64,000 bases of DNA, taken from assembly GCA_016288315.1 (NCBI GenBank), contig JAEEYU010000055.1:1-64000 (forward strand). The letters run 5' to 3'. The position numbers were made by a program, and so were the translations under genes. The notes under the pieces were generated by a model, which did no database searches, had not been told where the DNA came from, and was given only the letters and a program-made list of their open reading frames with translations. Source of the DNA: Clostridiaceae bacterium. Lineage in GTDB: Bacteria > Bacillota > Clostridia > Oscillospirales > Acutalibacteraceae. Positions 34,906 through 56,161 of this stretch are shown piece after piece (position 1 is the stretch's first letter; each line of letters begins with the position of its first letter).

Positions 34906-35133
34906 TTATTTCTTGCCGAACAGACCACCGAGTTTGCCTGCAACCTCAGAGACGGTGTCGGCGGTGAGCTTTGCCTTGACGAGGTCAACAACCTTGTTTA
35001 TTGCGTCGTCGGGTAAATCGACGCCCAGAATGCCCTCGATGGTTTTTACGGGTTCTTTTTCAAAATTTGCCTTGATGTTTTTGTCGCTTTTGATTTTTTT
35101 GACTATTTCTTCCGCTTTTGCTTTGTAATCCAT
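34906..35133 (-). CDS. Small (75 aa) helical protein of unknown function
   Basis: MDYKAKAEEIVKKIKSDKNIKANFEKEPVKTIEGILGVDLPDDAINKVVDLVKAKL; RBS and terminator present. Confidence 0.65.
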   Translation of the reverse strand: MDYKAKAEEIVKKIKSDKNIKANFEKEPVKTIEGILGVDLPDDAINKVVDLVKAKLTADTVSEVAGKLGGLFGKK

Positions 35134-35200: not shown

Positions 35201-35602
35201 TTATTTTTTAATCAGGTCAGTAAGTTTTTTTGAATAAAAAAAGTTATGAACAAGCTCGTCAAACTCCTTCCACATCGGCAGAGTTTCACAAATCGAAGCC
35301 CTCGGGCAGTTGAAATCCGGGTTTTCAAGACAGGCAACAGGGGCAAGAGGACCCTCTGCAGCTTCAAGAATTTCGCCGGCATTGTATTCTTGCGCTTTGC
35401 GTGAAAGCTTGTATCCGCCGCCCTTGCCGCTTACTGAGTCAAGAAGACCGGCAGAAACGAGGTCTTTGACTATTATTTCAAGATACTTTTTTGAAATCTC
35501 CTGTCTGTCGGCTGTTTCTTTAAGAGGAACAGGTTTGTCTTCATAGTTTTCGGCTATATCAAGCATAATGCGTATGGTGTATCTGCCTTTTGTTGTAATC
35601 AT
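35201..35602 (-). CDS. Rrf2-family transcriptional regulator (CymR/IscR-like)
   Basis: MITTKGRYTIRIMLDIAENYEDKPVPLKETADRQEISKKYLEIIVKDLVSAGLLDSVSGKGGGYKLSR; internal Met preceded by AGGAGGCG RBS chosen as start. Confidence 0.92.
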   Translation of the reverse strand: MITTKGRYTIRIMLDIAENYEDKPVPLKETADRQEISKKYLEIIVKDLVSAGLLDSVSGKGGGYKLSRKAQEYNAGEILEAAEGPLAPVACLENPDFNCPRASICETLPMWKEFDELVHNFFYSKKLTDLIKK

Positions 35603-35681
35603 AAAAGCGCCTCCTTTTTGCCTATTATACCGCAAAGGAAATATTTTTTTCAAGAAATTTTAAAAAAATCCTGAAAACCTA

Positions 35682-35710
35682 TTGACATACTGGGTAATTA
35701 GTGATACAAT
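35682..35710 (+). promoter_or_regulatory. Consensus sigma-A promoter upstream of Cys leader / metY-cysK
   Basis: TTGACA (35682-35687) - 17 nt - TACAAT (35705-35710). Confidence 0.85.
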
Positions 35711-35743
35711 GCAATCAGTTCAGACGACAGGAGGCAGAATATA

Positions 35744-35863
35744 ATGTTAAAAACCAATTACCGTTATATGTGTTGGCGAATGCTTAACTCCCGGGCTTTT
35801 AATTCGGCCGGGGCTGAGGCGTTCGGTTTTGCCTGCCCCTGTTTTGCTCGATGTTGCAGCTGA
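35744..35863 (+). CDS. 39-aa cysteine-rich leader peptide MLKTNYRYMCWRMLNSRAFNSAGAEAFGFACPCFARCCS
   Basis: ATG with AGGAGG RBS 9 nt upstream, directly downstream of a consensus promoter; five Cys including CPCFARCC near the C-terminus; absent from the supplied ORF track because of length. Confidence 0.75.
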   Translation: MLKTNYRYMCWRMLNSRAFNSAGAEAFGFACPCFARCCS

Positions 35864-35915
35864 AAGATGCCGAGAGCAACCGAAAGCCCGGGAGATAAAA
35901 ACTCCCGCTTTTTTT
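35788..35915 (+). promoter_or_regulatory. Putative transcription attenuator (antiterminator/terminator switch) upstream of metY
   Basis: CTCCCGGGCTTT (35788-35799) is the exact reverse complement of AAAGCCCGGGAG (35883-35894); the latter overlaps the 5' arm of the terminator hairpin. Confidence 0.7.
35889..35915 (+). terminator. Attenuator terminator hairpin
   Basis: CGGGAG ATAAAAA CTCCCG followed by C and TTTTTTT. Confidence 0.75.
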
Positions 35916-35978
35916 ATGCAGGGAGATGATGAAAAACCAAATCTTACAATTCACAAATAATTTTAAGGAGATAAAAAA

Positions 35979-55788: not shown

Positions 55789-55795
55789 ACTCAAC

Positions 55796-56138
55796 GAGTG
55801 GGATGGGCAGTCGCAGGCAGTTTTACTGCGTGAGGAAAGTCCGAGCTCCGCAGAGCGGGATAACGGCTAACGGCCGCCGAGGGTGACCTCAGGGAAAGTG
55901 CAACAGAGATATACCGCCTGTGTTTCACAGGTAAGGGTGGAAAGGCGAGGTAAGAGCTCACCGGCGTGCGGGGAACCGCACGGCCCTGCAAACCCTATCC
56001 GGAGCAACATCAGCAGGGGGAGTGCTTTGCACGGCGCTTGCTCGGCGATACCCCGAAGGATGGCTTAAGCCTTGCAGCAATGTAAGGCGTAGAAAGATGA
56101 TTGCCTTAAATGACAGAACTCGGCTTACAGTCCCACTC
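55796..56138 (+). ncRNA. rnpB: RNase P RNA (bacterial class A-like)
   Basis: Conserved GAGGAAAGTCCGAGCTCC, GGTAAGGGTGGAAAGG, ACAGAACTCGGCTTACAG; terminal pairing GAGTGGGA/TCCCACTC. Confidence 0.95.
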
Positions 56139-56161
56139 AGTTTGTTTTTTATGCAGGTTTT

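Follow-up and report, generated by a model that had tools for sequence, protein, structure and literature searches.

The metY-cysK leader and its surroundings

The window, the whole 64,000-nucleotide stretch of DNA that was analyzed, contains two neighboring genes that score above the NCBIfam cut-offs for O-acetylhomoserine aminocarboxypropyltransferase (metY, TIGR01326; 35979..37265, + strand) and cysteine synthase A (cysK, TIGR01139; 37283..38215, + strand). A divergent gene upstream (35201..35602, - strand) encodes an Rrf2-family regulator, which in a profile search resembled both IscR and CymR and fell below either equivalog cut-off. Adjoining the Rrf2 gene is a reading frame for a 75-residue protein (34906-35133, - strand) with a weak match to NHLP leader RiPP precursors (20.4 bits, cut-off 50.9). 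A class A RNase P RNA lies elsewhere in the window (55795-56143, + strand).

The region between the Rrf2 gene and metY contains a sigma-70-type promoter, TTGACA-17-TACAAT (35682..35710, + strand), with TTGACA at 35682-35687, TACAAT at 35705-35710, a 17-nt spacer and 11 of the 12 consensus positions. It is followed by an AGGAGG ribosome binding site (RBS; 35729..35734, + strand), which is near-consensus in almost all homologs, and by a 39-codon leader ORF (35744..35863, + strand) encoding MLKTNYRYMCWRMLNSRAFNSAGAEAFGFACPCFARCCS, for which homologous short ORFs are present in relatives. Within the ORF lies the putative 5' antiterminator strand, arm 1 (CTCCCGGGCTTT; 35788..35799, + strand). Downstream of the ORF, arm 4 (AAAGCCCGGGAG; 35883..35894, + strand), the 3' antiterminator strand, is the exact 12-nt reverse complement of arm 1, and its own 3' half is the 5' strand of an intrinsic terminator, CGGGAG-ATAAAAA-CTCCCG followed by the U tract CTTTTTTT (35889..35915, + strand). 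Re-reading the sequence upheld all of these elements as first described in the sequence-only reading: the promoter, the RBS, the ORF with its peptide, and the 12-nt complement with its overlapping terminator.

Two further arms lie between arms 1 and 4. Arm 2 (GGCCGGGGC; 35806..35814, + strand) has two alternative partners, arm 1 through CCGGG:CCCGG and arm 3 (GCCTGCCCC; 35831..35839, + strand) through GGGGC:GCCCC. The pairing of arm 1 with arm 2 belongs to a competing hairpin, here called the protector, whose lower stem joins CGAATGC (35777..35783, + strand) to GCGTTCG (35819..35825, + strand); both parts are present in the minimum free energy fold of the window leader. The peptide contains five Cys residues. 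Cys10 (TGT, 35771..35773, + strand) lies directly 5' of the antiterminator arm, and the other four (codons 31, 33, 37 and 38; 35834..35857, + strand) form the C-terminal cluster CPCFARCC.

A recurrent leader in Clostridia

With the 39-residue peptide as query, one clear homolog was found within the same genus (G228, L002), and matches outside the genus were mostly due to chance. Inspection of weaker peptide matches revealed the same leader upstream of metY in two other genera (L003, L022); in G174, the peptide match lay on the opposite strand from the genuine leader there. A nucleotide string, CGAATGCTTAACTCCCGGGC, was almost constant among the first homologs and the remaining peptide was not, and a nucleotide pattern performed far better than the peptide. 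Within the order, the pattern search returned seven more leaders, and homologs were found at the genus, family, order, class and phylum levels. A two-arm pattern returned at least 118 stretches in named genomes, and 113 of the 118 matches listed were genuine leaders, defined by an RBS, an ORF and a Cys run. The other five (L092, L093, L145, L155, L174) were dropped as chance or unclear, since a Cys run or an acceptable ORF was missing. The two-arm leader was not found in a pattern search of viral contigs.

Covariance models extended these results. Of 391 genomes of the class, 13 carried the family by the first model (R1), and single genomes had as many as three copies. The second (R2, built from 101 members) placed it in 11 of 200 genomes of the bacterial family and also in other classes of the phylum; its weakest matches (L185, L189-L191) are chance-like. 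Making the genuine pattern matches non-redundant and adding the window and L002 gave a set of 107 leaders. Without redundancy, the family thus numbers at least 107 leaders in Clostridia (the window and L002 included), mostly from gut and rumen. Hosts include Lachnospiraceae, Ruminococcaceae/Oscillospiraceae (Gemmiger, Oscillibacter, Agathobaculum), Saccharofermentans, Blautia and Christensenella, and the carriers among isolates include Pseudobutyrivibrio xylanivorans DSM 14809, Clostridium porci and Ruminococcaceae strain KHP2. The leader turns up in a minority of genomes and, within a family, in several genera, a scatter suggesting that it has been lost or transferred.

Common to the family is a short ORF preceded by an RBS, in which Cys (and Met) codons run directly up to R-M-L-x-S-R-A and which contains one arm; the complement of that arm follows the ORF, and an intrinsic terminator comes last. 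Since arms 1 and 4 were largely prescribed by the search pattern, most of the conservation in these arms reflects selection by the search; independent evidence comes from the free positions and the model-found members only. As judged by sequence comparison, the architecture lies far beyond chance: it recurs in 113 of the 118 matches listed, its arms covary and the covariance model finds others. Ten leaders (L034, L069, L091, L128, L130, L135, L146, L152, L161, L165) form a subfamily with an N-terminus like LLRSNFRCGRM, in which Gly follows a single Cys; the LLRSNF part is conserved and might function as a nascent-chain element.

Cysteine codons and RNA pairing

To describe the Cys run, we numbered codons relative to the Arg codon preceding arm 1; the Cys positions lay outside the search pattern. 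Cys occupied codon -1 in 86 and codon -2 in 83 of the 113 leaders listed, and 110 of the 113 carried Cys within codons -1 to -3. Across codons -4 to -1, Cys accounted for 196 and Met for 118 of 428 residues, compared with 8 and 16 of 852 residues further upstream. A few leaders, such as L112 and L182, had no Cys in the run. Model-found leaders with altered arms retain CC-RM (L054-L057, L184 and the second copy in L089).

The 3' part of the ORF is more variable. Cys was present among the last three codons in 52 of the 107 leaders, 28 of which had an RC terminus; 11 had no Cys 3' of the arm, and several ORFs end shortly past it. In L044, the stop codon comes three codons past the Cys pair (after CC-R-M-R), and both arms and the terminator are intact. 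Of the five Cys residues in the window peptide, Cys10 is the family-conserved one and the four C-terminal residues vary. Since Cys directly before the arm is near-universal, the C-terminal cluster is variable and L044 is truncated, the conserved sensor is predicted to be Cys10, and not mainly CPCFARCC. The sequence-only reading had proposed Cys-codon sensing at CPCFARCC; the sensing of Cys codons is strongly supported by comparison across the family, whereas the cluster as the family sensor is not. Many ORFs (e.g. in L043, L100, L102) share the C-terminus RLxxxRC-stop, encoded by CGATGTTGA and located about 25-30 nt 5' of arm 4.

The pairing of arms 1 and 4 varies in a compensatory manner. The one pair left open as R:Y in the search pattern was G-C in 98 and A-T in 9 of the 107 leaders, with no mismatch. 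The next free pairs were GC in 88, GT in 10 and AT in 8 leaders, and then AT in 74, TA in 11 and GC in 5. In the model alignment, 94% of cells across the whole structure were paired, compared with at most 58% when the partner was slid, and 70 double changes were counted compared with 15.9 in shuffles, a score reached by none of 500 shuffles. The inner hairpin of arms 2 and 3 showed double changes at all five of its pairs, and the terminator stem was paired in 84% across the family. For the protector, 80% of cells were paired compared with at most 49% when slid, and the complement forming its 7-bp lower stem was present in 34 of 107 leaders compared with 4.8 in shuffles. The protector pairing of arms 1 and 2 showed no covariation in the family alignment, in part because the search pattern fixed its 5' strand.

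These results bear on the comparisons that the sequence-only reading had proposed. A covariance search of genomes did recover relatives with both a conserved Cys-run ORF and compensatory changes in the arms, including changes in the 12-bp pairing at positions left free by the pattern. The two competing hairpins that it named fared differently, as the pairing of arms 2 and 3 covaries and that of arms 1 and 2 fits the family without covariation. The family thereby combines a short ORF with its own RBS, Cys codons at a fixed position relative to the helices, and mutually exclusive antiterminator and terminator pairings with compensatory change.

Ribosome position and the predicted fold

For each of the 107 leaders, a 30-nt ribosome was masked at each codon and the remainder was folded at equilibrium. 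Across the family, the antiterminator exceeded the terminator with the A site at positions up to codon -1, and it was close to 0 at codons +2 to +11, where the ribosome sits on arm 1. Because the antiterminator is lost from +2, the Cys codons are the last positions at which a stalled ribosome would leave arm 1 free. The family averages for antiterminator and terminator were 0.55 and 0.38 with no ribosome, 0.70 and 0.25 at codon -2, and 0.43 and 0.47 at the stop codon. The contrast between no ribosome and codon -2 is modest on the family average, and this weak equilibrium contrast implies that kinetics must do part of the work in many members.

The window leader behaved more sharply. With the ribosome on Cys10, the antiterminator was 1.00 and the terminator 0.00; with the ribosome on the stop codon, the values were 0.01 and 0.97. 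Both folds were stable across footprint edges from +8 to +16. A ribosome on Cys31, Cys33 or Cys37 also gave values of about 1.00 and 0.00. Thus, in the folding model, a ribosome at the control codons switches the fold, in a clear-cut manner in the window and more weakly on the family average. The stalling at CPCFARCC envisaged in the sequence-only reading is therefore favorable to the antiterminator in the window fold and not on the family average, where a ribosome at the terminal Cys gave 0.40 for the antiterminator against 0.51 for the terminator, a slight terminator bias. The cluster may serve as an additional sensor, with auxiliary stall sites, in this particular leader.

The probable promoter operator and the downstream genes

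An inverted repeat, CCTATTGACATACTGGG (35678..35694, + strand), overlaps the -35 box of the window promoter and is, from its conservation, a probable operator for an Rrf2 (CymR/IscR-like) regulator. The conserved element, CCTATTGACATAGTAGG, is a CCTA-N9-TAGG inverted repeat with the -35 hexamer TTGACA inside it. Both halves were exact in 65 of 102 leaders and contained one mismatch in a further 20, compared with 0.2 and 5.5 in shuffles. The motif is rare genome-wide, with one to four copies in each of seven whole genomes, mostly upstream of leaders. In G887, three of the four copies lie about 100 nt upstream of its three leaders, and the fourth precedes genes that read as iscS-iscU. Homologs of the window Rrf2 protein were found near the leader in 25 of the 107 non-redundant loci. 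The promoter repeat is therefore conserved and, in this one iscS-iscU instance, shared with a known kind of target, and its binder is likely to be an Rrf2 regulator of the CymR/IscR kind.

Further copies of CCTATTGACATAGTAGG (L192-L204) occur at leaders, at iscS-iscU-like genes (L204) and at an acetyltransferase-like gene in the genome of the window and in a congener (L194, L201), and the palindrome is a candidate Rrf2 regulon motif. In P. xylanivorans (L193, about 1501-1720, before metY), the operator is followed by a degenerate leader, MKQLLISFVRHNCKNGRMQSSNCYYCC, which ends beside the metY RBS and contains neither pairing arms nor a terminator. This leader is possibly a decayed or translational variant.

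Where the gene downstream could be read, metY stood first in 52 loci; in 32 the leading gene encoded a substrate-binding protein of the MetQ/NlpA type or of family 3, in some cases fused, and six began with amino-acid ABC permeases. Further downstream are cysK, MetN, MetI and Fe-ADH-like genes, and the operons include MetNIQ/cystine-type ABC transporters. Other family leaders precede cystathionine gamma-lyase/synthase-like genes and a symporter-like gene (both named by eye from sequence). The genes downstream of the leader family are a sulfur amino-acid regulon, comprising both synthesis and uptake. Separately, family leaders lie upstream of a glutathione S-transferase-like gene in L073, L124 and L129 (the L073 type) and of a LanC-like gene in L151. 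Such targets would widen the regulon past the obvious Cys and Met genes.

Predicted mechanism and alternatives

We propose, from computation, that the leader acts as a ribosome-mediated attenuator of transcription, sensing how much charged tRNA-Cys is available, and we assign this reading a probability of about 0.87. Attenuation of this type, through an antiterminator/terminator switch, had been suggested in the sequence-only reading, and the comparative evidence (the position of the Cys codons, the covariation of the arms and the terminator) argues strongly for it. Transcription would start from the promoter at 35682, and a ribosome would initiate on the leader ORF. When charged tRNA-Cys is short, the ribosome would stall with Cys10 in the A site, covering CGAATGC, such that the protector of arms 1 and 2 stays incomplete and arm 1, just downstream, is free. 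Arm 1 would then pair with arm 4, enclosing the hairpin of arms 2 and 3; the terminator would not form and metY-cysK would be transcribed. When charged tRNA-Cys is ample, the ribosome would cross arm 1 and reach the stop codon, leaving arm 1 occluded or refolded with arm 2. Arm 4 would then pair with its terminator strand and transcription would end near 35915. Our best reading is that this attenuation, which perhaps also responds to charged tRNA-Met, would be layered on repression by the Rrf2 regulator.

Several other readings share part of this evidence. One of them, which we regard as unlikely, has CPCFARCC as the sensor, with a ribosome parked between both arms permitting antitermination. 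The window folds for Cys31, Cys33 and Cys37 and the many leaders with a terminal Cys or an RC end favor it, but the cluster varies or is absent after the arm, some ORFs stop soon after the arm, that of L044 stops three codons after its Cys pair, the terminal-Cys average leans to the terminator, and it is the Cys directly 5' of the arm that is near-universal. A broader role, in which the leader senses sulfur amino acids generally and a shortage of either Cys or Met would stall the ribosome and open the operon, is possible, although we would not favor it. Runs such as MCMCMC, MCCMCMC and MCMYMM, the strong enrichment of Met at codons -4 to -1 and downstream genes that synthesize or import both amino acids speak for this role. 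Met at -1/-2 is, however, no commoner before transporters than before metY (8/35 vs 7/51, p=0.39, not significant), ATG preceding TGT may have other reasons, and a Met shortage also impairs initiation, that of the leader itself included. In its widest form, this becomes a tentative picture of a multi-operon attenuator family in gut Clostridia, in which mixed Cys/Met runs of variable length would sense both tRNAs and the same promoters would also be subject to an Rrf2 repressor. If true, sulfur genes would need both a low-cysteine initiation signal and a stalled leader ribosome, and the length of the run and its Cys:Met mix would tune each operon.

The remaining readings dispense with sensing by leader translation. 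Control at initiation by the Rrf2 operator, with the terminator causing constitutive partial termination, is consistent with the highly conserved operator over the -35 box, yet it leaves the conserved Cys codons and the covarying antiterminator arms unexplained, and we consider it very unlikely. It is harder still to credit that the leader encodes a functional Cys-rich small protein (e.g. one that binds metal), with the RNA pairing being secondary. Nearly all relatives do have a real ORF with a good RBS, and the RMLxSRA motif recurs. This motif is, however, what CGAATG..CTCCCGG encodes; the arms covary at the RNA level, the N- and C-termini are unconserved, and natural truncations retain the RNA parts. 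Nor does a protein family match the peptide: the window peptide and eight relatives gave no NCBIfam match, and the window peptide gave no Pfam match. Sensing by a riboswitch or T-box would fit the position and gene context of S-box and T-box leaders in Firmicutes, but neither class needs a conserved ORF with positioned Cys codons. The Rfam check raised by the sequence-only reading returned no known family: at the gathering score, neither the window leader nor the leaders of 20 homologous loci gave a match, and at a relaxed threshold the only matches at the leader were chance ones to microRNAs and snoRNAs, none above chance. Covariance-model matches to the T-box (RF00230) and the S-box/SAM riboswitch were thus absent from the leader, and we regard the chance of such an RNA as close to negligible. 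One T-box was found in L128, located away from the leader.

Comparison with known systems

Cysteine regulation in Firmicutes has been ascribed to T-boxes, S-boxes and repressors of the CymR type. The comparisons above indicate that the present leader very probably works as a cysteine-codon attenuator, and that it belongs to a real, conserved and apparently previously uncatalogued family. No description of the family was found in open-access papers; priority cannot be firmly claimed, because this coverage omits most subscription journals. The family clearly exemplifies an antiterminator arm that is also coding sequence: the conserved RMLxSRA peptide would largely be a by-product of RNA pairing. 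The covariance model of the family can be used to annotate sulfur amino-acid regulons across many uncultured genomes.

The closest parallels in principle lie outside the Clostridia. Mycobacterial cys operons carry polycysteine short ORFs (Canestrari et al. 2020, doi 10.1111/mmi.14498, cited in PMC13236596; predicted in PMC1262725), in which, as proposed here, cysteine is sensed at the Cys codons of an upstream ORF and sulfur genes are controlled accordingly. Their Cys run lies near the stop codon, they are leaderless and an intrinsic terminator is not conserved (PMC1262725). The present family, unlike these ORFs, has an RBS, an internal Cys run preceding a coding arm and an intrinsic terminator; we saw no sequence relation between the two and do not assign the leader to the mycobacterial type. 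In Rhodobacterales, uORFC-8-2 upstream of cysS similarly combines tandem Cys codons with an intrinsic terminator, and ribosome-mediated attenuation has been proposed for it (PMC8632094). By its description, it is set apart by its occurrence in Alphaproteobacteria, its restriction to cysS and Cys codons that lie inside the first stem (PMC8632094), whereas the present family occurs in Clostridia before metY, cysK and transporters, with the Cys codons just outside arm 1.

Within the Firmicutes, leader-peptide attenuators have rarely been reported, an example being the histidine leader peptides of Bacillus hisS*/hisZ (PMC2965389). These share with the present family only the principle of classical leader-peptide attenuation, and concern histidine in bacilli. 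The CymR-CysK and IscR systems, also of the Rrf2 family, control cysteine genes at initiation (PMC3828012, PMC2940859). The divergent Rrf2 gene of the window and the palindrome over its metY promoter resemble these systems, and would provide a second layer beside the predicted attenuator. Closest in function are the cysteine T-boxes of Clostridium perfringens cysKE, cysP1, cysP2 and ubiG (PMC2940859), which have in common with the present family the gene functions, the tRNA-Cys charging signal and premature termination. In those T-boxes, the RNA binds the tRNA directly and translation is unneeded, whereas the present leader contains no T-box. Clostridia that have no cysteine T-box may, it has been noted, rely on other cysteine controls (PMC2940859), and for many gut and rumen Lachnospiraceae, Oscillospiraceae and Saccharofermentans-like bacteria, the leader family described here offers an answer to that question.
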